Shown: in pieces, positions 4,468-26,496 of the stretch
Numbering within the stretch: the stretch's first letter is position 1
Layout: the number at the start of each line of letters is the position of its first letter
Assembly: GCA_011391495.1 (NCBI GenBank)
Contig: JAABQK010000003.1
Span: 1-64,000, forward strand
Length of the DNA: 64,000 nt
Source of the DNA: Hydrogenophaga sp.
GTDB lineage: Bacteria; Pseudomonadota; Gammaproteobacteria; Burkholderiales; Burkholderiaceae_C
Reading direction: 5' to 3'
Position numbers and translations under genes: made by a program
Notes under the pieces: model-generated
Told to the model about the DNA's origin: nothing
What the model saw: only the letters and a program-made list of their open reading frames with translations
The model's database searches: none

Positions 4468-5295
4468 TCAGCGCGTCAGCAGGCGCCGCACGCCGTGGCT
4501 GGCCGCATCCACAAACGTCACCAGCAGCAGCATGGCGCCGAGGAGGGTGGCGGTCTTGCCCATGTGGAACAGGCCCATGTGGAAGGCCAGCAGCTGGCCC
4601 AGGCCGCCCGCGCCCACCACGCCCAGCACGGCCGCGGCGCGGATGTTGTTCTCCCAGCGGTACAGCGTGTAGCTCATGAGCTGCGGCAGCACCTGGGGCA
4701 GCGTAGCGTAGAGGAACACGCGGCCGTCGGGAACGCCCTGCACGCGCAGCGCCTCGCCCGGGCCGGGCGGCGCGTTCTCGATGGCTTCGGCAAACAGGCG
4801 ACCCAGCACGCCTGTGGTGTGCAGCGCCAGCGCCAGCGTGCCGGCCAGCGGCCCCAGTCCGGCAGAGACCAGCAGCAGCGCAGCCCACACCAGTTCGGGG
4901 ATGCTGCGCAGCGCGTTGAGCAGCAGGCGCGTGGGCGTGCGGCCCCAGGCCGCATCCCCCGCATTCAGGCGGCTTGCCGGCAACGCCAGCGCCAGGCCCG
5001 CCAGCGCGGCCAGCACCGTGCCCAGCGCCGACATGGCCAGCGTCTCCCAGGTCCCCTGCGCCACCTTCTTCAGGAAGGCGGACGACGTGTCGGGCGGGAA
5101 GAACTCGCCCAGGAAACGGCCCATGCTCTGCGCCGCTTCCAGCGAGAAGAACTGACCCCATTGCAGATCGAGCGACCAGAAGCTCGCGACCACCAGCACC
5201 AGCAGGGCCGCGGTGAACCAGCAGGCCTTGCAGCGCGCGTCGAACAGCGGCGGCGGCAACCGGTAAGTCTGGTTCGCGGCGCGGGGCTTGTTCAT
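4468..5295 (-). CDS. phnE: PhnE-type ABC transporter permease (second), putative selenate/oxyanion importer
   Basis: 275 residues from ATG 5295, overlapping the preceding permease gene by 4 bases. It has about six hydrophobic segments and the binding-protein-dependent permease signature (EALRVQGVP, then YTLYRWENNIRAAAVLG and GAGGLG) near the C-terminus. The family is PhnE, used by phosphonate, phosphite and related oxyanion importers. The adjacent binding protein belongs to the putative selenate subgroup and selenoneine genes lie next door, so selenate or selenite is the more likely cargo. It is the last gene of a four-gene minus-strand operon. Confidence 0.85.
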   Translation of the reverse strand: MNKPRAANQTYRLPPPLFDARCKACWFTAALLVLVVASFWSLDLQWGQFFSLEAAQSMGRFLGEFFPPDTSSAFLKKVAQGTWETLAMSALGTVLAALAGLALALPASRLNAGDAAWGRTPTRLLLNALRSIPELVWAALLLVSAGLGPLAGTLALALHTTGVLGRLFAEAIENAPPGPGEALRVQGVPDGRVFLYATLPQVLPQLMSYTLYRWENNIRAAAVLGVVGAGGLGQLLAFHMGLFHMGKTATLLGAMLLLVTFVDAASHGVRRLLTR

Positions 5296-6128
5296 CCGAG
5301 AGCCCTTCGCAGCCAGCTGCTCACCCGGTCGGCCAGCGCCACCAGGGCCATGAACACGAGCAACATCGTGGCCACCTCGCCACCGCTGAACATCTTCATC
5401 GAGTTGTCCATCTGCTGGCCCAGGCCGCCTGCACCCACGAAGCCCAGCACCACCGAGGAGCGGATCGCGCATTCCCAGCGGTACACGGTGTAGCTGGTGA
5501 GCTCGGCCGCGCTGGCCGGCAGCAGACCGTAGAAGAAGGCCTGGATACGGCCCGCGCCGTTGCGCAGCAACGCTTCGGTGGCCTGGGTTTCGCCGCTTTC
5601 CAGGATCTCGCCGTACACCTTGCCCAGCATGCCGCCATAGGTGAGCGCGATCGCCAGCACCCCGGCCGTGGGACCCAGGCCCACCACGCGCACGAACACC
5701 AGCGCCCACACCAGCTCGGGGATGCTGCGCAGCACGATCAGCAGCCAGCGCACCAGCTGGCGCAGCCAGAACGGCCCACGCGCCATGCGGCCCGAGAGCG
5801 CCGAGATGGACAGCACGCGGGTCGACAGCAGCGTGAACGGAATGGCCAGTGCCAGTGCCAGCGTGATGCCTGCGCTGGCCATGGCCACGGTGCGCCAGGT
5901 TTCCCGGGCCACCATGAGCAGGAAGTCGCCACTGTGCGCCAGTGGCCAGAAGCTGCCGATGAAATGGGCACTGACCTTCAGGCTCTCGGGTTCGAACATC
6001 ACCCAGGGCCGGAACTCGGTGGCCACCAGCAGCGGCCACAGCAGCACGAACGCCGCGCCGCCCCAGAACAGGCGCGACATCCAGGCCGGGTCGCGGTCTG
6101 GAATGGGACGCAGGCCGAGGTCAGCCAC
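5292..6128 (-). CDS. phnE: PhnE-type ABC transporter permease (first), putative selenate/oxyanion importer
   Basis: 278 residues from ATG 6128. The layout matches the second permease: an N-terminal membrane segment, a periplasmic stretch, then five or so membrane helices carrying LRSIPELVWAL, ATEALLRNG and YTVYRWECAIRSSVVLG plus GAGGLG. The two permeases share these motifs and probably form a heterodimer in the inner membrane. A 102-base gap separates it from the ATPase gene, and most of that gap is a REP-like repeat, so the operon may have an internal processing or attenuation point. Confidence 0.85.
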   Translation of the reverse strand: MADLGLRPIPDRDPAWMSRLFWGGAAFVLLWPLLVATEFRPWVMFEPESLKVSAHFIGSFWPLAHSGDFLLMVARETWRTVAMASAGITLALALAIPFTLLSTRVLSISALSGRMARGPFWLRQLVRWLLIVLRSIPELVWALVFVRVVGLGPTAGVLAIALTYGGMLGKVYGEILESGETQATEALLRNGAGRIQAFFYGLLPASAAELTSYTVYRWECAIRSSVVLGFVGAGGLGQQMDNSMKMFSGGEVATMLLVFMALVALADRVSSWLRRALG

Positions 6129-6162
6129 GGTGAGGTGCCTTCGTCCAGCAGCAGCCGCAGAA

Positions 6163-6229
6163 CCGGCTCCGCCGGGCTGCTGGCTGCGCCCCTGGGGGGT
6201 GACGCGAAGCGGCGCGGGGGGATCTCATG
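6163..6229 (-). repeat. REP-like intergenic repeat, copy A
   Basis: A GC-rich element of about 67 bases lying directly after the stop of the importer ATPase gene. Read on the minus strand it starts CATGA, has a C-rich block, an inner hairpin (CCCC-AGGGG) and ends with CCCGGCGGAGCCGG. A second copy with the same order of parts is at 29438-29508, also just after an ABC-transporter gene. The repeat itself is seen directly; any role in mRNA stability or termination is inference. Confidence 0.65.
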
Positions 6230-6230
6230 A

Positions 6231-7064
6231 TCACCTGCAGTGCATCACCACCGGCTGCGGCGCGGCGGGCGCTTCCACCGGGGCCGGGGGCACTTCGCCG
6301 CGCAGCTCGTGTTCGTACTGGTCGTACAGCGCGGCGAGGCGCTCGCGCGTGACCTGTGCCGCGGGCAGGTCGAAGGCCAGCGCGCCGTCGCGCAAGCCGA
6401 TGATGCGCGGGAAATGGGCGAGTGCCACGTCCACCTGGTGCAGCGTGGCCACCAGCGTCACGCCACGGGTGCGGGCTTCGTCGATCAGCGTGGCCACGGC
6501 CTGCCGCGAGCGTGTGGGGTCCAGCGCGGACAGCGGCTCGTCGATCAGCCAGAGCTTCGCCGGCGCCAGCAGCGCGCGGGCCAGACCCACGCGCTGGCGC
6601 TCGCCGCCCGAGAGGCGGTCCACGCGGTCAAACAGCTTGTCGGCCAGATCGAACCGGTCCAATGCGTCGAAGGCGGCGGGAATGTCCGCTGGGTAAAACA
6701 GCGAACGCAGGCTCTGCCACAGCCCCATGGCGGGCAGGCGTCCTGCCAGCACGGCGGTGACCACGCGCTGGCGCGGTGGCAGCGGCGGCACCTGGGGTGC
6801 CAGAAACAGGCGCCCGCGCAGGCGCTGCAAGTCGCTGCGCGGCAGCTGCCATGGCGCTGCGCCGTCCAGTCGCAACTGGCCTGCGGCCGGCGGCATGGCG
6901 CAGGCCAGCACCTGCAGCAGCGTGGTCTTGCCCGCGCCCGAGGGGCCGATCACGGCCACCTGCTCGCCACTGGCGACCTGCAGGTTCAGGCCCTTGAGGG
7001 CGTGCGCTGCACCCGGCCGCGCCGCCGGATGGCGGGCGCTCACGCCCTGCAGGTCGAGGTTCAA
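6231..7064 (-). CDS. ABC transporter ATP-binding protein (PhnC-like) of the putative selenate importer
   Basis: 277 residues. Walker A is GPSGAGKT (residues 40-47), the signature is LSGGERQRVGLARALL (near 152), and Walker B is LWLIDEPLSALD, followed by a switch histidine in ATLHQVDVA. These are the motifs of a PhnC-type importer ATPase, which powers uptake through the two PhnE-type permeases. The C-terminus has a Pro/Ala-rich tail of about 20 residues. It lies 15 bases after the binding-protein gene and so is surely co-transcribed with it. Confidence 0.88.
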   Translation of the reverse strand: MNLDLQGVSARHPAARPGAAHALKGLNLQVASGEQVAVIGPSGAGKTTLLQVLACAMPPAAGQLRLDGAAPWQLPRSDLQRLRGRLFLAPQVPPLPPRQRVVTAVLAGRLPAMGLWQSLRSLFYPADIPAAFDALDRFDLADKLFDRVDRLSGGERQRVGLARALLAPAKLWLIDEPLSALDPTRSRQAVATLIDEARTRGVTLVATLHQVDVALAHFPRIIGLRDGALAFDLPAAQVTRERLAALYDQYEHELRGEVPPAPVEAPAAPQPVVMHCR

Positions 7065-7079
7065 GGGCCGCTCCTCCGG

Positions 7080-7952
7080 TCAGAGCAGCTCGGCGCTGCG
7101 CGCAGCGGCTTCGATGCCCTTGTAGTTCTCTGCCTTGGTCGGCACGAACCGGGTAGCGCGCTGCAGCTCCAGAATCTCTTTGCCTTCGGGCGTGGCCTTG
7201 GAGAGCGAGGTCAGCGCGTCGGCCAGCTTCTGGCGTGTGGCGGCCGGCATGTCGGCGTGCACCGACCAGTTGTAGTCGAAGTAGGGCGGGGTGGTGAAGA
7301 CCACCCGCACCTTGGTGGGATCCACCTTCTTGTCGGCCACGAACTTCTCCCACACCGAGATGTTGAGCGCGCCGCCCTGCACCTTGCCGGAAGCGACCGC
7401 CGCGATGGTCGCGTCGTGCGCACCGCTGAAGGCCACGCGCTTGAAGTCCTTTTCGGGGTTGATGCCCTGCTGCAGCAGGAAGCTGCGCGGCATCAGGTGG
7501 CCGGAGGTGGAGCTTTGTGAACCGAAGGACACGTCCTTGCCCTTGAGGTCGGCCAGGCTGTTGATGCCCGGGTCGCTGGTGATGAACACCGACCTGAATT
7601 TTTCGTCTTCCTCGCGCTGCACCAGCGGGATGACCTTGCCGCCGGAGCGCACGTGGGCCTGCACGAAGGTGAAGCCGCCGAACCAGGCCATGTCCACCTT
7701 CTTGTTGACCAGGGCTTCCACCGAAGCGGCGTAGTCGGTCACGGGGGTGAACTCGACCTTCATGCCGAGTTTGGATTCGAGGTATTTCACCAGCGGCGCG
7801 GCCTTGCGCGCCAGCTCGGTGGGCGATTCGTCGGGGATGGCGGTGACGCGGAACACCTGCTGGGCCTGGGCCATCGAGGCGATGCCGGTGGCGGCGAGCA
7901 CGGCGCAGGTCAAGAGTGCGCGTCTGGTGCGGGAAAAGGTGCTGTGTTTCAT
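7080..7952 (-). CDS. Putative selenate ABC transporter substrate-binding protein (PhnD superfamily)
   Basis: 290 residues. The first 30 residues are an export signal (twin arginine-like RTRR, hydrophobic stretch, cleavage after AQA). The mature protein has the PhnD-type pattern: IPDESP near the start, VDMAWFGGFTFVQA, and GSQSSTSGHLMPRSFLL, which line the oxyanion pocket in this superfamily. It closely resembles the subgroup called putative selenate ABC transporter periplasmic binding protein, found mainly beside selD or other selenium genes. Here egtD is divergent from it and senABC follow within 4 kb, which supports that role. Phosphonate or phosphite binding is the alternative. It is the first gene of the importer operon. 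Confidence 0.85.
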   Translation of the reverse strand: MKHSTFSRTRRALLTCAVLAATGIASMAQAQQVFRVTAIPDESPTELARKAAPLVKYLESKLGMKVEFTPVTDYAASVEALVNKKVDMAWFGGFTFVQAHVRSGGKVIPLVQREEDEKFRSVFITSDPGINSLADLKGKDVSFGSQSSTSGHLMPRSFLLQQGINPEKDFKRVAFSGAHDATIAAVASGKVQGGALNISVWEKFVADKKVDPTKVRVVFTTPPYFDYNWSVHADMPAATRQKLADALTSLSKATPEGKEILELQRATRFVPTKAENYKGIEAAARSAELL

Positions 7953-8066
7953 GGGTATCCGATCAAGAGGGATAGGGGGATGGTATTAAACCGCGTTGCC
8001 GCGCTTTTTGACCGCCCAGGGGTCTTGTGACCTGTCCCGGCAAGAAAATGCCTGCCCCCACGACCC

Positions 8067-8088
8067 AAACCGGATGGCCCGCCGGTTT
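8067..8088. promoter_or_regulatory. Perfect inverted repeat between importer operon and egtD; candidate operator
   Basis: AAACCGG-N8-CCGGTTT lies in the 170-base divergent region between the binding-protein gene and egtD, 34 bases before the egtD start. A TATAAAG sequence follows at once and could serve as a -10 element for egtD. A partial relative (AAACCGCG-TTGC-CGCGCTTT) sits at about 7988-8007. No regulator can be assigned from the sequence. Confidence 0.4.
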
Positions 8089-8122
8089 ATAAAGTGGTGC
8101 GTCCACACCCACCCCGTTCCCC

Positions 8123-9124
8123 ATGCACCACCCGCCCACCGCCCCCCATTTCGTGCAGCTGCACCAGACCGACCACGACGCCGTGCGCGCCGAGCTGGCC
8201 GCGGGTTTGCTCGCGCAGCCGCCGCAGGTGGCGCCCAAGTTCTTCTACGACGCGCTGGGCTCGCGCCTGTTCGACGCCATCACCGAACTGGCCGAGTACT
8301 ACCCCACGCGCACCGAGGGCGCTATCTTCCGCGAGCACGGCGCTGCCATGGCGCAGCGGGTGACGGCGGGCGCGGTGCTGGTCGATCTGGGCGCGGGCAG
8401 CTGCGCCAAGGCCACAGGGCTGTTTCCCGTGTTGCGGCCGGCGGCCTATGTGGCGGTGGACATTTCGGTAGACTACCTGCGCGAGACCATGGGCGAGCTG
8501 CAGCAGCGGCACCGGGCGATGCCCATGCTGGGGCTGGGCATGGACTTTTCGGCCCAGCTGGCCCTGCCGCCCGCCGTGGCCGACTGGCTGGAGCGGCACG
8601 ACCTCAGCAGCGCGCCGCGTTGCGTGTTCTACCCCGGCTCCAGCATCGGCAACTTCAACCCCGCCGAAGCCCTGGCCCTGCTGCGCCAGGCGCACGCCGT
8701 GTGCGCGGCGGGCGGGCCGGGTGGCGGCATCCTGATCGGGGTGGACCGCGTGAAGGACAAGGCCATTCTGGAGCCCGCCTACGACGACCCGCTGGGTGTG
8801 ACCGCCGCCTTCAACCGCAACCTGCTGCTGCACACCAATGCCCTGCTGGGCACCGACTTCACGCCGGCGCGCTGGAAGCACGTGGCCTTTTTCAATCAGG
8901 CCGAATCGCGCATCGAGATGCACCTGCAGTCCGACGGCGCGCAGACGGTGCGCTGGCCCGGCGGCGAGCGCCGCTTTGCCGATGGCGAGCAGCTGCACAC
9001 CGAGAACTCCTACAAGTGGGAACCGGCCGATTTCGATGCGCTGCTGCGCGAAGCGGGCTTCGGTCCGTCCACCCACTGGACCGATCCGCGCGACTGGTTC
9101 AGCGTGTTTTTTGCGCCGGCCTGA
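8123..9124 (+). CDS. egtD: L-histidine N-alpha-methyltransferase EgtD
   Basis: 333 residues. EgtD uses three S-adenosylmethionine molecules to convert histidine to hercynine (trimethylhistidine), the acceptor for ergothioneine and selenoneine synthesis. Seen in the sequence: an N-terminal helical part with PKFFYDALGSRLFDAI, a SAM-binding strand VDLGAGSCAK (87-96), FYPGSSIGNF (169-178), which is diagnostic for EgtD, and SYKWEP near the C-terminus. Length matches the family. It points away from the importer operon and converges on senA with only 12 bases between stops. Its placement beside senA implies its hercynine feeds selenoneine synthesis; use for ergothioneine as well is possible if egtB lies elsewhere. 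Confidence 0.93.
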   Translation: MHHPPTAPHFVQLHQTDHDAVRAELAAGLLAQPPQVAPKFFYDALGSRLFDAITELAEYYPTRTEGAIFREHGAAMAQRVTAGAVLVDLGAGSCAKATGLFPVLRPAAYVAVDISVDYLRETMGELQQRHRAMPMLGLGMDFSAQLALPPAVADWLERHDLSSAPRCVFYPGSSIGNFNPAEALALLRQAHAVCAAGGPGGGILIGVDRVKDKAILEPAYDDPLGVTAAFNRNLLLHTNALLGTDFTPARWKHVAFFNQAESRIEMHLQSDGAQTVRWPGGERRFADGEQLHTENSYKWEPADFDALLREAGFGPSTHWTDPRDWFSVFFAPA

Positions 9125-9136
9125 CGGCTGCGGCCA

Positions 9137-10384
9137 TCACACCCCGACCGAGCGGAATCCGGCCACGATGTCGTTGCGTTCGGGGGTGAAGTAGTTGCGG
9201 TAGCTGGGGTGGCGCATGCGCGGCACGGTGGCGGGGCTCGCGCCCTTGAGCACCGGGCGGCCGTCGAACCACGGACGCGAATAGTCCACGTAGGGGTGCG
9301 GCGCAAAGCCGGGGAAGGGTGCGAAGGCGCTGGCGGTCCATTCCCACACGCTGCCCCAGTGGAAGTCCGCGTGTTGCGCCGCCACGGCCCACTCGGCTTC
9401 GGTGGGCAGGCGCCGCCCGGCCCAGGCGCACCAGGCCTGCGCTTCAAACGCGGTGAGGTGGCTGGCCGGCGCGGCCGGGTCGAGCGGGTGCCAGCGGCCA
9501 AACACCTGCTGTTCCCAGCCCTGCGCGCCCTGGCGCAGGTAGCGCGGGGCCAGCCGGTCTTGCGAGAGCCGCCAGATCCAGCCCGGTGCACCCCAGAAGC
9601 GGCGTTGCGCGTAGGAGCCGCTTTCGACGAAAGGCAGGAACTGCGCCCAGGTGACGGGCCGTGCGTCGATCTCGAAGGCCGCTACCGGTGCCGCGTGGGC
9701 GTTCAGTTCGTTGTCGAATGCGAAGCCCGGACCGTGGTGGCCGAGTGTCCAGTCGGTGGCGGGGACCTGGAGTGCCCGGGGTTTTCGGCTGTCCGATGCC
9801 AGGGTGTGTGGGGGGGGTGCGGCTCCCGCGCTGAACGGATCCAGGCCCAGCGTCTGCGCCATGTACACCGCCGCCTCGGCGTGCATGTCCTCGTGGAACA
9901 GCGCAAGGCGAAAGAAATACAGGCCGGCGTCGTCTTCCGGCGCATCGGCCAGCCGGGCCAGGATGGCGTCCAGGCTGGCGGCCAGGTCGGCGCGCGTGGC
10001 GTTGGCGTCGGGCAGGTGAAGCTGCCAGCGCCGGTCGTGCGCCACCGCGCTGGAGTTGTAGAGTCCGTCGGCATCCACGCCGCGCGCTGCCTGGCGTGCC
10101 GGGCTGCGCGCCACCGCCGGGTCGGCGTGCACGCCCAGCGGGCACTGGGGATTGCGGGTGATCCACCAGTCGGCGAACCAGCCGATGTGGCCCAGTTCCC
10201 AGAGCGGCAGGTTCAGCTCGGGCGAGCAGGGCACGCGCAGTGCCGGCCCGAGCCCAGCCTCGTAGGCGGCAAACAGCGCCAGGCTGTGGGCCCGCGCGTC
10301 GCGCAGCGCGTCGGCCAGCGCGGTTTTGCCCGCCGTGCGGGCCGCTTCGGCTTCAGACACAATGCGCTGCTGGTTCAAACCCAT
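9137..10384 (-). CDS. senA: Selenoneine synthase SenA (EgtB-like non-heme iron enzyme)
   Basis: 415 residues. An N-terminal DinB-type domain holds the iron-binding triad H66 (HIGWFADWW) and H164/H168 (HEDMH). A C-terminal formylglycine-enzyme/sulfatase-modifying fold (about 205-415) has RRLPTEAEWA and SVWEWT and ends RNYFTPERNDIVAGFRSVGV. EgtB joins a thiol to hercynine; the SenA clade instead joins a selenosugar to hercynine and releases selenoneine. Assignment to SenA rather than EgtB rests on the clade-like C-terminus and on the neighbouring senB and selD homologue. Its ATG overlaps the divergent senB ATG in the tetranucleotide CATG (10382-10385), so its promoter must lie inside senB. Confidence 0.9.
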   Translation of the reverse strand: MGLNQQRIVSEAEAARTAGKTALADALRDARAHSLALFAAYEAGLGPALRVPCSPELNLPLWELGHIGWFADWWITRNPQCPLGVHADPAVARSPARQAARGVDADGLYNSSAVAHDRRWQLHLPDANATRADLAASLDAILARLADAPEDDAGLYFFRLALFHEDMHAEAAVYMAQTLGLDPFSAGAAPPPHTLASDSRKPRALQVPATDWTLGHHGPGFAFDNELNAHAAPVAAFEIDARPVTWAQFLPFVESGSYAQRRFWGAPGWIWRLSQDRLAPRYLRQGAQGWEQQVFGRWHPLDPAAPASHLTAFEAQAWCAWAGRRLPTEAEWAVAAQHADFHWGSVWEWTASAFAPFPGFAPHPYVDYSRPWFDGRPVLKGASPATVPRMRHPSYRNYFTPERNDIVAGFRSVGV

Positions 10385-11363
10385 GAAAAAACCCTCTCTC
10401 TGCATCGTCACACCGGCCCTGGCCGACGCCAACAACGGCAACTGGCAGACCGCGCGCCGCTGGGCGCGCATGCTCTCGGGCCATTATGCGGTGCGGCTGG
10501 TGAAGCAATGGCCCGACGGGGCTTCCACCGACGACGGTGCCGACATCCTGCTCGCGCTGCACGCGCGGCGTTCGGCCGCCAGCGTGGCCGCCTGGGCGCA
10601 GGCGCACCCTGACAAGCCGCTGGTGCTGGCGCTCACCGGCACCGACCTCTACCGCGACATCCAGAGCGACGCCAGTGCGCAGCGTTCGCTGGCGCTGGCG
10701 CATCGGCTGATCGTGTTGCAGGAACAAGGCCCGCTGGAACTGCCACAAACCCTGCGCGCCAAGTGCCGCGTGGTGTTCCAGTCCAGCACGCGGCGCGCCA
10801 CGTTGCCCAAGACCCGCGCTCATCTGCGCGCGGTGATGGTGGGACACCTGCGCGACGAAAAGGCGCCGCAGACCCTGTTTGAAGCCGCGCGCCTGATCCG
10901 GCCCGATGAAGGCATCTTCATCGACCACATCGGCAACGAACTCGACCCCGCCCTCGGCGAGGCCGCGCGCGCCACGCAGCGCGACTGCCCGCACTACCGC
11001 TGGCTCGGCGGGCTGCCGCACGCCGCCACACGCTCGCGCATCCAGCGCGCCCATGGGCTGGTGCACACCAGCCGGATGGAAGGCGGCGCGCACGTGATCA
11101 TGGAAGCCGTGCTGTGCGGCACACCCGTGCTGGCCTCGCGCATCGCCGGCAACGTGGGCATGCTCGGCGCTGACTACGGCGGCTACTTCCCGCCCGGTGA
11201 CGCCACCGCACTGGCCGCGCTGCTGCGTGAGGTCCGCAGGGACATCGCCACCGCCGGCGGCAAGCTCGCCGCGCTGCAAGCACAATGTGAAGCCAGAGCG
11301 CCCCTGTTCGACCCCGCTGCCGAGCAGGCCGGCCTGCTCGGCGTGCTGGCCGAGCTGCTGTAA
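10383..11363 (+). CDS. senB: Selenosugar synthase SenB (GT4-type glycosyltransferase)
   Basis: 326 residues from ATG 10383. It has the two-domain outline of a GT-B glycosyltransferase: an N-terminal IVTPALADANNGNWQTARRW (the hallmark of the former TIGR04348 family), a central LALTGTDLYRDI, and a C-terminal donor site with MVGHLRDEKAP, VHTSRMEGGAHVIMEAV and GTPVLASRIAGNVGMLG. SenB couples selenophosphate to a UDP-sugar to make a selenosugar, the selenium donor for SenA. The gene starts inside the overlapping CATG shared with senA and is followed after 67 bases by the selenophosphate synthetase gene. Confidence 0.9.
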   Translation: MKKPSLCIVTPALADANNGNWQTARRWARMLSGHYAVRLVKQWPDGASTDDGADILLALHARRSAASVAAWAQAHPDKPLVLALTGTDLYRDIQSDASAQRSLALAHRLIVLQEQGPLELPQTLRAKCRVVFQSSTRRATLPKTRAHLRAVMVGHLRDEKAPQTLFEAARLIRPDEGIFIDHIGNELDPALGEAARATQRDCPHYRWLGGLPHAATRSRIQRAHGLVHTSRMEGGAHVIMEAVLCGTPVLASRIAGNVGMLGADYGGYFPPGDATALAALLREVRRDIATAGGKLAALQAQCEARAPLFDPAAEQAGLLGVLAELL

Positions 11364-11430
11364 GCACCCACTGCGCTTCCCGACCCATCCCGGTTGCCCA
11401 CCGTCATCGAATCCCCCTGGAGCCCCGTCC

Positions 11431-12504
11431 ATGAACGCACCCACCACCACCGCCGCCACCCAGCCCCGCCTCACCAGCCTCTCGCATGGCGGTGGCTGCG
11501 GTTGCAAGATCGCGCCCGGCGTGCTGAGCGAGATCCTCAAGGGCACGGCTGCCATGCCCATGCCCAAGGAACTGCTGGTCGGCATCGAGACCGCCGACGA
11601 CGCAGCCGTCTACCAGCTCAACGACGAGCAGGCGCTGATCGCCACCACCGACTTCTTCATGCCGATCGTGGACGACCCCTACGAATTCGGCCGCATCGCC
11701 GCCACCAACGCCATCAGTGACGTGTACGCCATGGGCGGCACGCCCATCATGGCGCTGGCCCTGGTGGGCATGCCCATCAGCGTGCTCAGCACCGAGACCA
11801 TCGGCAAGATCCTGCAAGGCGGACAGGACGTGTGCCGCGCCGCCGGCATCCCCATCGCGGGCGGCCACACCATCGACTCGGTCGAACCGATCTACGGCCT
11901 GGTGGCCATGGGCCTGGTGCACCCCAAGCGCGTCAAGCGCAATGCGGACGCGAAGGTGGGCGACCGCCTGATCCTCGGCAAACCGCTGGGCGTGGGCGTG
12001 CTGTCCGCCGCGCTGAAGAAAGACGCGCTGCCCGCCGAGGGCTACGCGCAGATGATCGCCAACACCACCCAGCTCAACACCCCCGGCCCCGAGCTCGCCG
12101 CGCTCGATGGCGTGCACGCGCTGACCGACATCACCGGTTTTGGCCTGGCCGGCCACACGCTGGAGATGGCGCGGGGCTCCAACACCACGGTGCAGATCGA
12201 CATGGCCCGCGTGCCCCTGATCGGCGGCGTGCGCGAACTGGCTGCGCAGGGCATGGTGACCGGTGCCAGCGGCCGCAACTGGGCCGCCTACGGCCACGAA
12301 GTGCGCCTCGGCGCGAACCTGCAACCGGTGGACCAGGCCCTGCTGAGCGACCCGCAGACCAGCGGCGGCCTGCTCGTGGCCTGCGCGCCCGAGGCCGTGG
12401 CCGAGGTGCTGGCGATCTTCGGGCGCCACGGCTTTGCCGCCGCGGCCGAGGTGGGCGAGATCACCAGTGCCGCCGCCGACGGCGTGCGCCTGCGGGTGGC
12501 CTGA
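11431..12504 (+). CDS. selD: Selenide, water dikinase (SelD/SenC), cysteine form
   Basis: 357 residues from ATG 11431; an upstream in-frame start would run through senB. The enzyme makes selenophosphate from selenide and ATP. The N-terminal catalytic loop GGGCGCKIAP has Cys23 and Lys26, equivalent to Cys17 and Lys20 of E. coli SelD, so this is not a selenocysteine form. Further hallmarks are DDAAVY, ISDVYAMGG, GGHTID, LTDITGFGLAGH and SDPQTSGGLL. As the gene after senB it fills the SenC role. It may also be the only SelD of the cell, serving tRNA or protein selenation; the window does not tell. The methyltransferase gene begins 36 bases after its stop. Confidence 0.92.
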   Translation: MNAPTTTAATQPRLTSLSHGGGCGCKIAPGVLSEILKGTAAMPMPKELLVGIETADDAAVYQLNDEQALIATTDFFMPIVDDPYEFGRIAATNAISDVYAMGGTPIMALALVGMPISVLSTETIGKILQGGQDVCRAAGIPIAGGHTIDSVEPIYGLVAMGLVHPKRVKRNADAKVGDRLILGKPLGVGVLSAALKKDALPAEGYAQMIANTTQLNTPGPELAALDGVHALTDITGFGLAGHTLEMARGSNTTVQIDMARVPLIGGVRELAAQGMVTGASGRNWAAYGHEVRLGANLQPVDQALLSDPQTSGGLLVACAPEAVAEVLAIFGRHGFAAAAEVGEITSAAADGVRLRVA

Positions 12505-12540: not shown

Positions 12541-13146
12541 ATGCAGAACCGCAGCATCGAGTTCTTCGACCGCCAGTTCCGCTCGGCGCCCGCGGCCGCG
12601 GCGCTGAAGCTCAACCCGTTTGAAACGACCGCCCTGCCTTTTCTGCAGGGTGATGTTCTCGACATCGGTTGCGGCATGGGCAACCTGGCCTGTGCCGCGG
12701 CCGCGAGGGGCTGCCGGGTCACCGCGGTCGATGCCAGTCCTGCGGCCGTCGCACACCTGCGTCAGCGCGCCCATGAGGAGCGGCTCGCCGTCAGCGCCAT
12801 CCAGGCCGACCTGCGCGATTACCCCATCGAAGCGGATTACGACACCGTGGTGTCGATCGGCCTGCTCATGTTTTTCGACTGCCCCTCGGCGTACCGCGTG
12901 CTGGCCGAGCTGCAACAGCACCTGCGCCCGGGCGGATGTTTCGTCCTCACCGTCCTGGTCGAAGGCACCACCTACGACGCCATGTTCGAGCCCGCCAGCC
13001 ACTGCCTGTTCCAGCCCGCTGACTTGCTGGACCGCTTTGCGGGCTGGGAGACCGAGCGCTGCCAGTCCGAAGACTTCGAGGCACCCGGCCAGACGCTCAA
13101 GCGCTTTCTCACGCTGGTGGCCCGGAAGCCGCGTGCGGCGACCTGA
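12541..13146 (+). CDS. TehB-like class I SAM-dependent methyltransferase
   Basis: 201 residues. SAM-binding motif I is VLDIGCGMGNLAC (about 40-52), motif II is VTAVDASPAAV, then IQADLRDY and VSIGLLMFF. The compact form resembles TehB, the tellurite-resistance methyltransferase. Members of this group can methylate small metabolites or chalcogen oxyanions, but sequence alone does not give the substrate. It lies 36 bases after selD on the same strand, so it is probably part of the senBC transcript. A role in making methylated, volatile or detoxified selenium is a reasonable inference from position. Confidence 0.75.
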   Translation: MQNRSIEFFDRQFRSAPAAAALKLNPFETTALPFLQGDVLDIGCGMGNLACAAAARGCRVTAVDASPAAVAHLRQRAHEERLAVSAIQADLRDYPIEADYDTVVSIGLLMFFDCPSAYRVLAELQQHLRPGGCFVLTVLVEGTTYDAMFEPASHCLFQPADLLDRFAGWETERCQSEDFEAPGQTLKRFLTLVARKPRAAT

Positions 13147-13722: not shown

Positions 13723-13864
13723 ACTCCAGCGCGAGCGCGCCGGGAGCACGGGCGCCAACCAAACGCCCTGGAATGCAGGGTGACTCTTGTGCTTCAATCC
13801 GTGACACGCCATCTACCCGTCGCCGCCGGTGCCGGGGTCTGGGGGCATTTCAGGAGACCCACCC

Positions 13865-14086
13865 ATGAATTCCATCAAGCTCGTCGCACTGCTCCTCATT
13901 GCCGCTGGTGTGCTGGCGCTGGCCTACGGGGGCTTCAGCTACACGAAGGACACCACGGCGGTGAAGCTCGGCCCCCTGGAACTCACGGTCCAGGAGAAGG
14001 AGACGGTCAACATTCCCCTGTGGGCAGGCATCGGGGCCATCGTGGTGGGTGGTGCCCTGCTGCTCGTGGGCAGCAAGCGCGGCTGA
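13865..14086 (+). CDS. Small membrane protein, DUF3185 family
   Basis: 73 residues from ATG 13865. Two hydrophobic helices (about 5-24 and 51-69) flank a short polar loop with KDTTAVKLGPLELTVQEKE. This is the usual shape of DUF3185 proteins, tiny inner-membrane proteins without known function. The AGGAG of CATTTCAGGAG precedes the start. It lies 59 bases before the rhodanese gene on the same strand. Confidence 0.7.
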   Translation: MNSIKLVALLLIAAGVLALAYGGFSYTKDTTAVKLGPLELTVQEKETVNIPLWAGIGAIVVGGALLLVGSKRG

Positions 14087-14145
14087 GGCCTGCTGCGGCC
14101 CGCGCAGACACGGCCTGTGGTGATCCAACCAGAGGGGGCTTGTCC

Positions 14146-14610
14146 ATGAAGCACTACGCCGACCTGATCGCCGAATGCCTGGCCGAGGTGAAGGAAGTCA
14201 TGCCCTGGGACCTGGCCGACCGGCTGCAACAGCCCCGGCCACCGCTGCTGCTGGACATCCGCGAGCCGCAGGAATTCGACGCGCTTCACATCGCGGGTTC
14301 GATCTGCGTGCCGCGTGGTGTGCTCGAAGCGGCCTGCGACTGGGACTACGACGACACGGTGCCCGAGCTGGCAGGTGGCCGCGAGCGAGAGATCGTGGTG
14401 CTCTGCCGCTCGGGCAACCGCAGCGTGCTGGCCGCCCACACCATGCAGCGCATGGGTTTCCAGCAGGTGGTGTCGCTCAGGACCGGCGTGCGCGGCTGGA
14501 ACGATTTCGAGCAGCCGCTGGTGGACCGCGAGGGTGTGCCCGTGGACCCCGACCGCGCCGACGAACTGCTGGCGAGCCGGGTGCGGCCGGCGCAGCGGCG
14601 CCCGGCATGA
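14146..14610 (+). CDS. Rhodanese-like domain protein (cytoplasmic)
   Basis: 154 residues from ATG 14146. A single rhodanese domain spans most of it: LLLDIREPQEFDALHIAGS, IVVLCRSGNRSVLAA with the active-site cysteine in the CRSGNRS loop, and VVSLRTGVRGWN. Such proteins carry sulfane sulfur (and in some cases selenium) as a persulfide. There is no signal peptide, so it acts in the cytoplasm. It is one of three rhodanese-domain genes within 5 kb. Confidence 0.85.
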   Translation: MKHYADLIAECLAEVKEVMPWDLADRLQQPRPPLLLDIREPQEFDALHIAGSICVPRGVLEAACDWDYDDTVPELAGGREREIVVLCRSGNRSVLAAHTMQRMGFQQVVSLRTGVRGWNDFEQPLVDREGVPVDPDRADELLASRVRPAQRRPA

Positions 14611-15782: not shown

Positions 15783-15884
15783 CCGGTGTGCCCGGCGGCC
15801 GGTGCACGTCGGGCGCGGCGGGATGACCCCGGCACCCACGGCCTGTTGAAGCCGCCGACAGGGGATGGGAAAACCCGGGTGACC

Positions 15885-15910
15885 ATCATTCTAAAGATCG
15901 TTAGAATGAT
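15885..15910. promoter_or_regulatory. Perfect 26-bp palindromic operator overlapping the arsR-rhodanese start
   Basis: Two 10-base arms, ATCATTCTAA and TTAGAATGAT, separated by 6 bases form a perfect inverted repeat that ends 4 bases before the preferred ATG at 15915 and contains an alternative ATG at 15906. Position and symmetry fit an ArsR-family operator for self-repression. The inner ATTC...GAAT halves recall operators of sulfide/persulfide-sensing ArsR proteins such as BigR and SqrR. No Shine-Dalgarno sequence precedes the start, so the mRNA could be leaderless. Confidence 0.7.
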
Positions 15911-15914
15911 GACC

Positions 15915-16583
15915 ATGAACAACCGCGAACTCAAGGATCTGCTGTACGAGCAGGTGGCCCGCATCGGCAAGGCCTTGGCCAGCCCCAAGCGGCTGGAGCT
16001 GCTGGAAATGCTGGCGCAGGGCGAGAAGTCGGTGGACATGCTCGCCGCCGAGCTGTCGATCGACATCAAGCTCGCCAGCGCCCACCTCAAGGCGCTGCGC
16101 GACGCCCGCCTTGTGACCTGCCGGCGCGAGGGCAAGTTCATCCTCTACCGGCTGACCGGCCCGGATGTGGCCGGGCTCGGCGTGAAGCTGCGCGAGGTGG
16201 CCGAAGAACACCTGCTGGAGCTGCGTCTGGCGCTGGACCAGATGGTGGCCCACCCCGGTCAGCTCACTTCGGTCGACCGCCAGGCCCTGATGGCGCAGGC
16301 GCAGCGTGGCGAGGTGGTGGTGATCGATGTGCGGCCACAGGACGAGTACGACGTGGCCCACCTGCCGTATGCGCGCTCCATGCCGCTGGCCGAGATCGAG
16401 CAGCGCCTGGCCGCACTGCCGCTCGACAGGGAGATCGTCGCCTACTGCCGCGGGCCGTTCTGCCTGTTGTCCGACGAAGCCGTGGCGCTGCTGCAGGCGC
16501 GGGGTTACCGCGCTCGCAAGGTGTCCGACGGCGTGAGCGAATGGCAGGCCGCGGGTCTGCCGCTGGCGTCGAACACCGATTGA
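15915..16583 (+). CDS. ArsR-type regulator fused to a rhodanese domain
   Basis: 222 residues from ATG 15915 (ATGs at 15906 and 15909 are possible and would lie inside the operator). Residues 1-100 are a winged-helix ArsR domain (ALASPKRLELLEML; recognition helix around SIDIKLASAHLKALRDA; wing with one cysteine, Cys69). Residues about 120-218 are a rhodanese domain: VVVIDVRPQDEYDVAHLP and active-site loop AYCRGPFC with Cys178 and Cys183. Such fusions can sense reactive sulfur through the rhodanese cysteines. It probably represses itself and the genes after it (DsrE-like at 16606, perhaps further). A selenium-responsive role is only a guess from the neighbourhood. Confidence 0.87.
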   Translation: MNNRELKDLLYEQVARIGKALASPKRLELLEMLAQGEKSVDMLAAELSIDIKLASAHLKALRDARLVTCRREGKFILYRLTGPDVAGLGVKLREVAEEHLLELRLALDQMVAHPGQLTSVDRQALMAQAQRGEVVVIDVRPQDEYDVAHLPYARSMPLAEIEQRLAALPLDREIVAYCRGPFCLLSDEAVALLQARGYRARKVSDGVSEWQAAGLPLASNTD

Positions 16584-20100: not shown

Positions 20101-21303
20101 TTAGGAGCTCACCATCGCCATGGCCCATCCGACGGTCGCACACCCCGCCACCACCACTAAGGGCGGCCACTTCCATCGCATCAGCGCGACCAGCGCCACA
20201 CCGGCCAGCAGCACATCCCCCACCCCGCGAATCCCGCTGGTGATGACCGGGTTCCACAGCGCGGCGAGCAGCAGGCCGATGACGGCGGCATTGATGCCCA
20301 TGAGGGCGGCGCGCACGCGCGGCTGGGCCCTGAGGCTTTCCCAGAACGGCAGGGCGCCGGCGATGAGCAGGAAGGCGGGCATGAAGATGGCCGCGAGCGC
20401 GAGCCCGCCGCCGGCCCAGCCGGTGGGCGTGCCCTGCAGGCTCGCGCCGAGGAAGGCCGCGAAGGTGAACAGCGGGCCGGGCACGGCCTGCGCGGCGCCG
20501 TAGCCGGCGAGGAAGGCTTCGTTGCTAACCCACCCGGTGGGCACCACGCTGGCCTGCAGAAGCGGCAGCACCACGTGGCCGCCGCCGAAGACGAGGGCTC
20601 CCGCGCGGTAGAACGCGTCCACCACAGCCAGCGCCTGCGACGGGAAGGCCGCGGCCAGCAGCGGCAGGCCCAGCAGCAGCGCGAAGAACAGCGCGAGCCA
20701 CGCGGCGCCCGCGCGGCGGCTGACCGGCACGGCCAGCGGTTCGTGCGGCGCGTCGGCCGCTGGCCGCAGCCACGCCAGGCCCACCAGCGCCGCCACGCCG
20801 ATGGCCAGCAGTTGCGCCACGGTGCCGGGCCAGGCGATCAGCAGCGCGGCGGCGGCCAGCATGAGCGCGCGGCGTTGGGTGTCCGGGCAGAGGCTTCGCG
20901 CCATGCCCCACACGGCCTGCGCGACCACCGCCACCGCCACCACTTTCAGACCGTGCAGCAGACCGGGTGACAGGGCGTCACCGGCCTGTGCGATGCCGAG
21001 CGCGAGTGCGATGAGCGCGAGGGCCGATGGCAGGGTGAAGCCGGCCCAGGCGGCGAAAGCGCCGGGGTAGCCGGCGCGCATCAGGCCCAGCGCCAGGCCC
21101 ACCTGGCTGCTGGCCGGGCCGGGCAGGAACTGGCACAGGGCGACGAGGTCGGCGTACGCCGCTTCGCTGAGCCAGCGGCGGCGTTCGACGAACTCGCTGC
21201 GGAAGTAACCGAGGTGCGCAACCGGGCCGCCGAAGGACGTGAGCCCCAGCCGCAGGAAGACCCAGAAGACCTGCCAGGCGCTGCGGTCGTGCCCGGATGT
21301 CAT
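20101..21303 (-). CDS. chrA: Chromate transporter ChrA (long form)
   Basis: 400 residues made of two homologous halves, each with about five to six membrane helices. The first half has RLGLTSFGGPVAHLGYF and QFLPGPASSQVGLALG; the second has GGGHVVLPLL and AAQAVPGPLFTFAAFLG. This is the full-length CHR family arrangement, known for chromate efflux driven by the proton motive force. Its start overlaps the stop of the SelD-N-terminal-type oxidoreductase gene by 4 bases. That tight coupling, in a region with selenium genes, raises the possibility that another oxyanion is its real substrate. Confidence 0.9.
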   Translation of the reverse strand: MTSGHDRSAWQVFWVFLRLGLTSFGGPVAHLGYFRSEFVERRRWLSEAAYADLVALCQFLPGPASSQVGLALGLMRAGYPGAFAAWAGFTLPSALALIALALGIAQAGDALSPGLLHGLKVVAVAVVAQAVWGMARSLCPDTQRRALMLAAAALLIAWPGTVAQLLAIGVAALVGLAWLRPAADAPHEPLAVPVSRRAGAAWLALFFALLLGLPLLAAAFPSQALAVVDAFYRAGALVFGGGHVVLPLLQASVVPTGWVSNEAFLAGYGAAQAVPGPLFTFAAFLGASLQGTPTGWAGGGLALAAIFMPAFLLIAGALPFWESLRAQPRVRAALMGINAAVIGLLLAALWNPVITSGIRGVGDVLLAGVALVALMRWKWPPLVVVAGCATVGWAMAMVSS

Positions 21304-22460
21304 GCCGCTGGCAGCGTGTACCTGGCCATGAAGGCACGGTCGATGCGGTCTTTCCAGCGCCAGGCCCAGCCGCCTTCGGCGTGCAGCGGGCCGTAGCTGG
21401 CGATGGCGTGGCCTGCGCCGCACGAGAGCAGGTTGAGCGTGTTGGCGGGCGGGTGGTGCGGCTTGAGCGGCTGGCCTTCGTGCGCTGCCAGCAGATTGGC
21501 CGCCAGCGGCGGGCCGGCGCGCACGGCGTACACGCCGCTCTTGGCGTGCGGCGCGTCGGCGCGGGTGGCCACGTCCCCGGCCGCGAACACCGCCGGGTGG
21601 CTGGTGCTTTGCTGGAAGGCGTTGACGAGCACGTGGCCGCTCTCGGACAGCGCCAGCCCGCTGCCCTGCAGCCAGGGCGGCGCGTGGGTGCCGATGGCCA
21701 GGATGGGCACGTCGCAAGCCAGGGTGGCGCCGCTGGCCAGGCGGACCGCGCCCGCCTCCACGCCCACACAGGCTTCGCGCAGCACGGTGATGTTTCGGCG
21801 CTTGAGCTGGCGCAGCACGCGGCGCTGCACGCCCTGGGTGTAGTTGGCCGCCACCTCGCCGCCACCCGTGATGAGCGTGAAGCGCGCGGCGTGCCCCTCG
21901 TTGCGCAGGCGCTGTTCGGCGGCGAACAGCAGCTCCAGGCCTGCCGCGCCGGCACCAACGACCGCGATGGAAACCGGCTGGTCGCCGGCCATGGCGACCA
22001 CCTGCGGCCAGAGCGCGGCAAAGGCTTCGATGGGCCGGACGATCAGCGCGCGATCGGCCGCGCCGGGCATCTCGGCTTCCAGGCGGACGCGGTCGATCAC
22101 GGCACCGGTGTCGATGGAAAGCAGGTCGCAGCGCAGCTCGGAGGGCACATCCCGGGCACCGCCGGCCGCCGCCACCTGCACCGTCCCGGCCGCCGCGTCG
22201 ATGCCGGTGCAGCGCCCCTGCACCCAGCGTGCACCGGCCGCCCTGACCAGCGGCTCCAGCGGAATCTGGCATTCGGCCGCGCTGTAGTGGCCGGCCACGA
22301 AGCCGGGTGTCATGCCACTGTAGGTCTGGAACGGGTAGGGTGAGAGGACGGTGACGTCCAGGTCGGCCGGTCGGTGCCGGGCCAGCTGGGCCAGCACATG
22401 CACATGGGCATGACCGGCGCCGAGCAGAAGGAGTTTCTTGATGCCGTGGTGCATGGGCAC
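21300..22460 (-). CDS. FAD/NAD(P)-dependent oxidoreductase, stand-alone form of the SelD-fused N-terminal domain
   Basis: 386 residues. FAD-binding motif LLLGAGHAHVHVLAQL (about 11-26), then YPFQTYSGMTPGFVAGHYS, a second dinucleotide site IAVVGAGAAGLELL, and VFAAGDVA near the C-terminus. The GAGHAHV and YSGMTPG forms are those of the family (TIGR03169) whose members are often fused to the N-terminus of SelD, forming a bifunctional protein. Here it is a separate gene 9 kb from selD and coupled to chrA. Its reaction is not established; a role in keeping selenium reduced before SelD has been proposed from fusion logic. General NADH dehydrogenase activity is the alternative. Confidence 0.8.
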   Translation of the reverse strand: MPMHHGIKKLLLLGAGHAHVHVLAQLARHRPADLDVTVLSPYPFQTYSGMTPGFVAGHYSAAECQIPLEPLVRAAGARWVQGRCTGIDAAAGTVQVAAAGGARDVPSELRCDLLSIDTGAVIDRVRLEAEMPGAADRALIVRPIEAFAALWPQVVAMAGDQPVSIAVVGAGAAGLELLFAAEQRLRNEGHAARFTLITGGGEVAANYTQGVQRRVLRQLKRRNITVLREACVGVEAGAVRLASGATLACDVPILAIGTHAPPWLQGSGLALSESGHVLVNAFQQSTSHPAVFAAGDVATRADAPHAKSGVYAVRAGPPLAANLLAAHEGQPLKPHHPPANTLNLLSCGAGHAIASYGPLHAEGGWAWRWKDRIDRAFMARYTLPAA

Positions 22461-22500
22461 CGATGGTAGCCGGGGAGGGAGCAGGGGCGCTGGTCGCCGC

Positions 22501-23271
22501 TCAGGGCGTGCCCGCGGCCCACTGCAGGTCGGCCACCCAGCCGGTGCTGCGGCTGGCGGTGTTGTCGCTGTCGGCCCCGATCAGGACCGTGCTCACGGCG
22601 GGCACCGCACGGCGTGGCGCCTGTGCACCTTGCGGCAGTTCGTCGCCAAACAGGGTGATGAAGTCCTGCGCCACGTCGCGCGATTCGTTCACCCAGCGGG
22701 CGAGTGGTGCGCCCTGGCCCTGCAGGCTGATGAAGCGCACGCGCCGTGTGTACGGGTTGGCGCCCTGCAGCGGTGCCGGGCTTGCGCTGTCCCACACATA
22801 GCAGAGCGTGGCTGCGGGCAGGGCCTCGCCGCTCACGCTGCGCGCGATGCGCAGCACGGTGCGCTCCAGAAAGGGCACCCGCTCCAGCGGGTGGTCAAAC
22901 ATCACGCAGACCTTCAGCGCGGCGTCGTCGCCGGCCTTGCTGAGCAGGTCGGGCGGGGCCTTGCCGCCGGAGAGCGGTGTGTCCAGCCGCCAGCGCCAGT
23001 TCAGCTGCGTCGGTGGCGCGGCTGCCGCGTCCTTCAGGTCGTGCACCAGCGTGCCGTAGGAGGATGCGGTACTCACCTTCAGCGCGGCTTCACCGTCCAC
23101 GCGGGCGGCCTCAAAGCGGGTGGCCGGCAGGTCGGCGTGTTTTTTCGGGAAGCCCACGAAGCGCCAGGCCGGGTTGAGCGCACCGTCGGCCTGCAGCAGG
23201 GGCGGCAGCGCCTGTGCCTGCGCGCCGATGGCCAGAGAGGTGAGCGCGCACAGCGCGAGCAGCTGGCGCAT
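22501..23271 (-). CDS. DUF3047 domain protein, exported
   Basis: 256 residues with a signal peptide ending AQAQA (about 1-21). The mature part has the DUF3047 pattern: WRFVGFPKKHADLPATRF, YGTLVHDLKD, LNWRWRLDTPL, KVCVMFDHPL and CYVWDSASPA. The fold is thought to be a beta-sandwich; no activity is known. It follows the DUF547 gene by 3 bases, so the two exported proteins are made together. Confidence 0.8.
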   Translation of the reverse strand: MRQLLALCALTSLAIGAQAQALPPLLQADGALNPAWRFVGFPKKHADLPATRFEAARVDGEAALKVSTASSYGTLVHDLKDAAAAPPTQLNWRWRLDTPLSGGKAPPDLLSKAGDDAALKVCVMFDHPLERVPFLERTVLRIARSVSGEALPAATLCYVWDSASPAPLQGANPYTRRVRFISLQGQGAPLARWVNESRDVAQDFITLFGDELPQGAQAPRRAVPAVSTVLIGADSDNTASRSTGWVADLQWAAGTP

Positions 23272-23274
23272 GGT

Positions 23275-24102
23275 TCAGCGGCCCGCGTCGCGAGCGGTGT
23301 CGTTCAACGACCAGTCGTAGTCGAGGTGGCTCACGCCCAGCGTCCTGGCTTTCAGCGCGGCCTGTTCGGCGGGCTGGTCGCTCAGGAGCTCGGCGTATTT
23401 CGCGAACACGTCTTCCACCTGCCTGAAGCCACCGTGGCCTTTTTCAAAGTCTTCCCTGAACCACTTGAAGATGCTGCTGACCTCGACCTTGCCGCCCTTG
23501 ACGCGGTTGCGTGTGCGGTCGCCCATGAAGCGGCGCATGCCGTCTTCGAGCTGGGCTTCGAGCTTGGCGGCGGTGAAGGCCTCGTCGCGCAGCGCCGGGC
23601 AGCCGATGCTGGCGCAGTTGACCGCCGCGTGCACACGCGGTTCGTTGTAGCGCGGGCGCAGCTGTTCGTGTTCGATCCAGTCGAGGTGGCGCTCATCGCC
23701 CAGCAGCGTGAAGAACTTCTTTTTCCAGGCCGACTGCACGAAAGAACCGAGGTCCTTGATGGATTTGAGGTCTGGGTATCGCGTCAGGATCAGCTCGACC
23801 GTGAAAGCGTTGTAGGCGTTGATGAGGAAGGCCATCTGCTGCGGCTGGCTCCAGCCGTCGAACGTCGTCCTGGGCACGGCGCTCATGCCGTCGAGCACGG
23901 CTTTCAGTGCGGCGCGGTCGGTGGCGAAGCCCCTGTAGTTCGCTCTGGACTGCTTGCCGTCTGACAGCCAGCGCACGTGCTTTTTCAGAAGCGCGTCCCA
24001 GGCGGCGTGGCTGTGGTCAAAGGCGGTCGTCTGGGCGTTTGCACCCAGCGGCGCGATGGCGGCAGCGGTGAGCAGGGCGATGAAGTGGCGGCGGGTGTTC
24101 AT
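23275..24102 (-). CDS. DUF547 domain protein, exported
   Basis: 275 residues from ATG 24102; an earlier in-frame start would lack a signal peptide. Residues 1-24 are a signal peptide with a leading arginine pair. DUF547 hallmarks follow: AFLINAYNAFTVELIL, ARPRYNEP-like LRPRYNEPRVHAAVNCASIGCP and KVEVSSIFKWFREDF. The family is periplasmic and sometimes compared with cysteine peptidase or transglutaminase folds because of the conserved N-A-x-N and CASIGCP segments. The reaction is unknown. It lies between the TVP38-reductase gene and the DUF3047 gene. Confidence 0.82.
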   Translation of the reverse strand: MNTRRHFIALLTAAAIAPLGANAQTTAFDHSHAAWDALLKKHVRWLSDGKQSRANYRGFATDRAALKAVLDGMSAVPRTTFDGWSQPQQMAFLINAYNAFTVELILTRYPDLKSIKDLGSFVQSAWKKKFFTLLGDERHLDWIEHEQLRPRYNEPRVHAAVNCASIGCPALRDEAFTAAKLEAQLEDGMRRFMGDRTRNRVKGGKVEVSSIFKWFREDFEKGHGGFRQVEDVFAKYAELLSDQPAEQAALKARTLGVSHLDYDWSLNDTARDAGR

Positions 24103-24145
24103 GGGGTGTGGATTCCGTTGCTGCGTGCAAGGTTCAAGCGCGGCC

Positions 24146-26314: not shown

Positions 26315-26496
26315 TCCTGGTGGGTTCTGTTGAGGGTGAGTCGCAACGGGCCGCCCATTCTTACACCGGGAGGGTTTCCACGCGGCCATGGCTGGGGTGT
26401 TCAAGAGCGCGGCGTGTGGACACAACCGATCGCTGCCCCCGGCCAGACACCTGCCCGCCGGGCCGGCTTGCACCCGTTCCTGGCGGTGGCGGACCT

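Follow-up and report, generated by a model that had tools for sequence, protein, structure and literature searches.

Eight genes occupy positions 4468–12504 of the window, the whole stretch of 64,000 nucleotides of Hydrogenophaga sp. contig JAABQK010000003.1 analysed here: four encode an ATP-binding cassette (ABC) importer of the PhnCDEE type, and four encode EgtD, SenA, SenB and SelD. The contig is part of a 3.23 Mb draft genome which is 86% complete, genome-wide absences are therefore provisional, as 14% may be missing. The eight features are given below, with scores for NCBIfam models set against their curated cut-offs:

4468..5295, minus strand: PhnE-type permease 2 (PhnE2), TIGR01097 264 bits, cut-off 216.7
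5292..6128, minus strand: PhnE-type permease 1 (PhnE1), TIGR01097 193 bits, under the cut-off of 216.7
6231..7064, minus strand: PhnC-like ATPase, ABC_tran PF00005; PhnC model TIGR02315 190 bits, under the cut-off of 266
7080..7952, minus strand: substrate-binding protein (SBP) of the TIGR04553 family, putative selenium oxyanion binder, TIGR04553 403 bits, cut-off 250
8123..9124, plus strand: EgtD, histidine N-alpha-methyltransferase (hercynine), TIGR03438 350 bits, cut-off 290.9
9137..10384, minus strand: SenA, selenoneine synthase, NF041186 510 bits, cut-off 420
10383..11363, plus strand: SenB, selenosugar synthase, TIGR04348 443 bits, cut-off 300
11431..12504, plus strand: SelD/SenC, selenophosphate synthetase, TIGR00476 436 bits, cut-off 125; carries GCGCK, which we take to be the active-site Cys/Lys motif

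An earlier reading of this DNA, made from the letters alone (the sequence-only reading), had placed egtD, senA, senB and selD together with a four-gene importer, and all eight genes were found where it had put them; its two separate permease genes were borne out by the reading frames. The permeases are 40–42% identical to each other, and a single fused permease gene (a 523-aa open-reading frame at 4468–6039) was rejected, as the PhnE match lies in its second half only and permease 1 is in another frame. The full eight-gene arrangement was found again in relatives, e.g. at loci L095–L098, L100 and L108. No Rfam family matched at gathering scores between positions 3000 and 24000. The divergent senA and senB genes have likely start codons which overlap, within CATG at 10382–10385, with the ends of the senA and senB tblastn matches likewise overlapping by two bases in L091, L100, L109, L110, L111 and L115; should these starts be correct, the two genes would have no promoter region between them.

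By homology, the block encodes a complete selenoneine gene set, as had been proposed, with EgtD, SenA, SenB and SelD each over the cut-off of its model. SenA reached 229 bits on the EgtB model, under the cut-off of 360, and in a tree of 58 SenA-like rows (the window and 57 from fetched loci) 45 SenA rows split from 13 EgtB-type rows with 100/100 support. The window protein falls among the 45, which agrees with the earlier placing of SenA outside EgtB. Rows of this tree were labelled beforehand by a bit-score limit of 160, L152 was omitted as a copy of L140, and 4 of the 13 EgtB-type rows were scanned, all four passing the EgtB model. At an E-value of 0.001 the SenA model gave one match in the draft genome, SenA itself, and no EgtB-like match; scanned EgtB proteins reach 347–386 on the SenA model, so an EgtB in this genome would have shown. 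Three other genomes (G302, G418 and G392; loci L143, L147 and L148) encode a second SenA over the cut-off, which forms its own 100/100 clade, and no SenB match was present in the 20 kb fetched around each of these second copies.

The draft genome holds one EgtD match at an E-value of 0.001 and one SelD over the cut-off; MnmH (tRNA 2-selenouridine synthase) is encoded on contig C22, and SelA was sought in the draft genome and not found. The sequence-only reading had called the gene selD/senC, but we do not take it for a private SenC: as this is the sole SelD found in the genome and MnmH is also present, it is not dedicated to selenoneine and presumably also feeds selenouridine. SenB keeps the EGGAHV motif, plus residues matching K158, E231, N20 and T23 of the published SenB structure (PMC10891094), N20 and T23 at the published positions and H, D, K and E shifted by +2 to 60, 88, 160 and 233. 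The selenoneine block itself is, by homology, genuine and of a known kind. In Variovorax paradoxus, too, SenA, SenB and a SelD are encoded in one block, the sen cluster (senA, senB and senC). In the window such a block stands with EgtD and the four-gene importer, and its SelD, the single one found in the genome, presumably serves MnmH as well.

The importer SBP has a signal-peptide-like start (judged by eye) and scores 170 bits on the PhnD model TIGR03431, under the cut-off of 261. The solved chains nearest to it are picocyanobacterial PhnD1 proteins, 7S6G (E-value 3e-56) and 5LQ5 (2e-43), followed by PtxB (1e-34) and E. coli PhnD (2e-19). An AlphaFold model of the window SBP, built on a 28-row family alignment, had a mean predicted local distance difference test score (pLDDT) of 92, and a structure search with this model ranked three PhnD1 entries (7S6G, 5LQ5 and 5LQ8) first, with fold alignment identities to the window SBP of 42% for 7S6G and 34% for 5LQ5. 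Scored over the parts of their sequences returned by the search of solved chains, 7S6G and 5LQ5 reach 333 and 302 bits on TIGR04553, and 122 and 123 on the PhnD model. Both fall inside the TIGR04553 family in a binding-protein tree of 93 rows, which used 25 of the 80 loci of an additional contig search and did not place HtxB; the branch dividing the whole family from PtxB has 95/68 support, and long outgroup branches meet there, as the tool warned.

The binding-pocket residues holding phosphate in 7S6G are Tyr44, Ser124-Thr125-Ser126, His156, Asp203 and Tyr204, with Thr65, Ser123, Asp11 and Asn174 (PMC10284923), and all of these are identical in the window SBP. In the 140 family rows taken from the loci, Tyr44, the STS motif and His156 never vary. 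Position 203 holds Asp in 106 rows and Asn in 34, and 138 rows have Tyr204; one of the two rows without Tyr204 is one of two tandem copies in genome G326 (Asn-Asn), the other is the G200 copy (Asn-Thr). PtxB, HtxB and E. coli PhnD share fold and transporter type with the window SBP, PtxB standing apart from the family on the tree and carrying Gln at 203 in place of Asp/Asn, and Tyr where the TIGR04553 family has Trp60. On model scores, tree position and pocket residues, picocyanobacterial PhnD1 (7S6G, 5LQ5) is a member of the TIGR04553 family with the same pocket. The arsenic oxyanion binders AioX and ArrX, also PhnD relatives, are 22–27% identical to the window SBP.

Genomes were counted as importer carriers where TIGR04553 was over its cut-off, in 398 Pseudomonadota drawn evenly, 60 relatives and 175 Cyanobacteriota (a second TIGR04553 copy in G326 was counted once). 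TIGR04553 was found in 34 of the 398 Pseudomonadota, SelD in 129 and SenA in 11. SelD was present in 32 of the 34 carriers vs. 97 of the 364 others (p = 4e-15, with all p-values treating genomes as independent and shared ancestry meaning that independence is overstated), and counted by genus in 20 of 21 carriers vs. 66 of 191 (p = 5e-8). SenA was likewise enriched, in 7/34 carriers vs. 4/364 others (p = 5e-6), in 7/32 vs. 4/97 when only the SelD genomes of the sample were considered (p = 0.005), and in 25/30 vs. 6/30 among the relatives. Taking the 62 carriers of both Pseudomonadota sets together, a SelA or MnmH match was found in 60 (these two were sought in 80 chosen genomes only), SelD over the cut-off in 58, and SenA in 30.

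The association extends to Cyanobacteriota, where TIGR04553 was found in 20 genomes and MnmH in 23, MnmH being present in all 20 carriers vs. 3 of the 155 others (p = 2e-23); with only the ten carriers of at least 3 Mb set against all 155 non-carriers, p was 9e-14. SelD was over the cut-off in 42 of 50 carrier genomes chosen from the 80 loci of the additional contig search (41 not titled Prochlorococcus, 9 Prochlorococcus), mostly as an oxidoreductase-SelD fusion by open frame. This fusion type is named fusion_not_SelD by an NCBI model, and the 11 cyanobacterial fusions examined keep the SelD motifs: Cys/Lys, Asp, GGH and TD(I/V)TG(F/Y)G. The TIGR04553 importer family is thus a general partner of selenium genes, nearly confined to selenium users and not tied to selenoneine alone.

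Gene adjacency was scored as SelD, SenA, SelA or MnmH within 10 kb, with 80 sub-cut-off matches of the same model as a control. A selenium gene lay within this distance in 15 of 34 Pseudomonadota carriers and 22 of 30 carriers among the relatives, vs. 8 of 80 controls (p = 8e-5 for the Pseudomonadota sample, and p = 1e-9 for the relatives against their own control of 8/72). Of the eight control rows that lie near selenium genes, the one in G026 is a contig-end fragment of what is probably a family member, and the remaining seven fall in six genomes, two (G037) side by side. The importer sits beside senA-senB-egtD-selD in the majority of loci mapped for the window's genus, in L065 and L101 the senA-senB-egtD set has a SelD fusion in place of SelD, and in L085 a one-strand run reads senA-selD-SBP-phnC-phnE-phnE-egtD, with SenA under its cut-off. 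In L063, SenA, SenB, EgtD and a SelD fusion accompany an SBP from a distant subfamily, and L203, from an uncultured bacterium, reads senA-senB-importer. Elsewhere the importer lies beside selA (L084, L099, L114 and L116), or beside selD and mnmH without SenA over the cut-off (L083 and L086–L089). Cyanobacterial loci show a SelD fusion and mnmH in L159, L173 and L177, and mnmH alone in L171. In one genome (G028) the PhnC gene adjoins senA (L126) and the SBP gene adjoins selA (L099). On the binding-protein tree the sen context shows at least 10 changes, so it was gained or lost repeatedly (in the labelling, L122 counted as selD context in spite of a SenA on its contig, and L107 and L119 as having no such context in spite of an adjoining EgtD). 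The earlier view of the importer as part of the selenoneine route is therefore not supported as it stood, since members of the family also lie with selA or selD-mnmH where a genome has no SenA over the cut-off.

We read the block as a probable selenium-to-selenoneine unit with a built-in general selenium importer, and put the probability of this at roughly 0.7. In the periplasm the SBP would bind a selenium oxyanion (most probably selenite), which the pair of PhnE-type permeases and the PhnC-like ATPase would bring in. The oxyanion would then be reduced to selenide, for which the TIGR03169 oxidoreductase at 21300–22460 is a candidate enzyme. SelD would convert selenide to selenophosphate, SenB would transfer the selenium to a sugar, EgtD would make hercynine, and SenA would join hercynine and the selenosugar to give selenoneine; as the genome has MnmH, the importer and SelD would presumably serve selenouridine too. 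The SelD, SenB, SenA and EgtD reactions are established for homologues (in part PMC10891094), and we infer every step for Hydrogenophaga itself.

The genome associations suggest that the importer takes up a selenium oxyanion, and there is precedent for a metalloid oxyanion in the PhnD-type AioX (arsenite) and ArrX (arsenate), going by the titles of their structure entries. Selenite has three oxygens in a trigonal arrangement, and selenate four in a tetrahedron. Of the two, selenite seems the likelier substrate, because PhnD1, with the same pocket, binds phosphite (three oxygens) far better than tetrahedral phosphate. For Synechococcus PhnD1 the affinity for hypophosphite was unmeasurable, its authors inferring that a ligand must offer three or more oxygens, trigonally arranged; they called the PhnD1 importer paradoxical, as most strains lack known phosphite or phosphonate pathways, and concluded that it is probably a constitutive phosphate transporter (PMC10284923). 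The string 'selen' is absent from the accessible text of that study. We hold it to be somewhat better than an even chance that TIGR04553 PhnCDEE is a dedicated high-affinity selenite importer common to the selenoneine, selenocysteine and selenouridine pathways, with the marine PhnD1 proteins included, their phosphite binding a case of mimicry and the existing crystals showing a selenite site. If so, this would explain the retention, in picocyanobacteria, of a phosphite-binding importer which for most of them is of no use in acquiring phosphorus.

Several observations weigh against this reading, in addition to the overstated independence of the genomes. Prochlorococcus PhnD1 binds phosphite with a dissociation constant of 50–120 nM and phosphate with one of 55–200 uM (PMC8786288), and homologues ~40% identical to the window SBP prefer phosphite in vitro, a preference which the sequence-only reading had itself named as evidence against its proposal. 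Phosphate is present in the 7S6G crystal, phosphorus deficiency induces the PhnD1 importer in Synechococcus WH8102, and the importer's conserved neighbour in picocyanobacteria is tesA, which selenium does not explain (all PMC10284923). SelD over the cut-off was not found in 2 of the 34 Pseudomonadota carriers, G319 (78% complete) and G200, the latter being the genome whose SBP has Asn-Thr where the family has Asp/Asn-Tyr, nor in the relatives G037 and G006, and 8 of the 50 carrier genomes chosen from the additional contig search are without it. Conversely, 97 SelD genomes of the Pseudomonadota sample lack the importer, which is therefore not required. Finally, 19 of the 34 Pseudomonadota carriers show no sought selenium gene within 10 kb, and SelD or MnmH was in the fetched flanks of only 4 of the 80 loci of the additional contig search.

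Of the competing explanations, the one that survives best keeps a selenium importer and gives it selenate or an organic selenium compound as its substrate, rather than selenite, which we consider rather unlikely. The NCBIfam name of TIGR04553, 'putative selenate ABC transporter' SBP, speaks for it, and tetrahedral phosphate fits the 7S6G pocket (PMC10284923); yet the affinity of Prochlorococcus PhnD1 for phosphate, a tetrahedral anion, is hundreds to thousands of times lower than its affinity for phosphite (PMC8786288), and the Synechococcus authors' requirement is for a trigonal, three-oxygen shape such as that of selenite. The window SBP is a member of this family, whose model gives its function as putative only. 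The sequence-only reading had likewise likened the SBP to a putative selenate subgroup: the grouping stands, as the protein passes TIGR04553 and fails PhnD, 'selenate' is doubtful, as the same-pocket PhnD1 prefers phosphite. Compared with the family name, the association with selenocysteine, selenouridine and selenoneine genes is counted here, and selenite is argued for over selenate.

Less likely again is that the importer carries phosphite, phosphonate or phosphate and has selenium neighbours for other reasons. The PhnD-type fold and operon would fit this, as would the binding of phosphite, and more weakly of phosphate and methylphosphonate, by picocyanobacterial members, and the induction of the WH8102 importer under phosphorus deficiency. 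However, the SBP fails the PhnD model and passes TIGR04553, co-occurrence with MnmH or SelD is near-perfect, and Synechococcus WH8102 and MITS9220 show no growth on phosphite or methylphosphonate (PMC10284923), although Prochlorococcus MIT9301, equipped with ptxD and a second importer, grows on either (PMC10284923). Of the families (111 and 117) matched by 87 of 124 flanking open-reading frames at the 22 loci without selenium neighbours, the 25 most frequent included no carbon–phosphorus (C–P) lyase or phosphite dehydrogenase, and none was found among the window open-reading frames scanned.

It is very improbable that the importer takes up hercynine, ergothioneine or selenoneine instead of inorganic selenium; it does adjoin egtD in the window and in relatives, but EgtD makes hercynine import needless, family members are found together with SelA or MnmH where no SenA is over the cut-off in the genome, the pocket matches small-oxyanion binders, and a dedicated ergothioneine importer has been described (PMC9732360). 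An EgtB identity for SenA, with ergothioneine as the product of the block, is hardly credible and was rejected: the two proteins are homologous (the 229 bits above), but SenA reaches 510 bits on its own model, is on the other side of the 100/100 split and adjoins SenB and SelD, and some relatives have a separate EgtB besides SenA.

According to reviews from 2022 and 2026, a specific high-affinity transporter for selenium had yet to be identified in any prokaryote (PMC9312934 and PMC13188914), a 2015 survey proposed YedE, a different protein (PMC5322559), and an ABC-ATPase near orphan SelD was seen in 2016 (PMC5029168). In the literature searched, which leaves most subscription journals outside, there was no experimental link of a TIGR04553 or PhnCDE-type importer to selenium or selenoneine, the 'putative selenate' name being used, in one paper, as an annotation. 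The prediction of such an importer already exists in the form of the NCBIfam name; what is new is that the association has been counted for three selenium pathways and that PhnD1 is identified as the same family. The locus thus names a candidate for the missing bacterial selenium importer, and ties it to proteins of abundant ocean cyanobacteria for which crystal structures exist. Should the reading be right, picocyanobacterial PhnD1 genes and structures would have to be re-interpreted in terms of selenium, and the ABC-ATPase reported near orphan SelD (PMC5029168) may belong to a TIGR04553 importer.

One further feature in the window bears on the proposed reduction step:

21300..22460, minus strand: pyridine nucleotide-disulfide oxidoreductase of a family fused to SelD elsewhere, TIGR03169 331 bits, cut-off 310

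We infer that this oxidoreductase is a candidate accessory of the block. It is the first of three genes on the minus strand at 21300–26602, followed by those for a DUF547 protein and for a fusion of a VTT domain with a pyridine nucleotide-disulfide oxidoreductase, for which homologous matches were found in 12, 6 and 10 fetched loci, respectively (loci chosen around SBP, SenA or SelD); two of the 12 loci (L122 and L127) hold the same gene. The three genes may possibly form a selenium-reducing module.

Other importers and binding proteins were seen near selenium genes. An Rv1680-family SBP-like protein lies near selD in L098 (5794–6504; 189 bits, cut-off 400) and in L247 (8487–9197), one of these two relatives (G021) having no TIGR04553 protein over the cut-off. 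A second PhnCDE-type importer is found near an oxidoreductase-SelD fusion in L248 (6740–9185) and L249 (13270–15631), with SBPs 29–31% identical to that of the window. In L133 (9467–16821, genome G037) SenA adjoins an importer with two TIGR01098-type binding proteins, both of which were rejected as TIGR04553 members, as model scores and the tree place them outside the family.

Directly downstream of selD, at 12541–13146, is a gene for a TehB-like S-adenosylmethionine-dependent methyltransferase, which was discarded as a conserved part of the block, having no match at an E-value of 1e-6 in the 172 loci L062–L233. Further downstream lie genes for a rhodanese-domain protein (13780–14610) and an ArsR-rhodanese fusion (15786–16583), the latter with matches in L090, L098 and L100.

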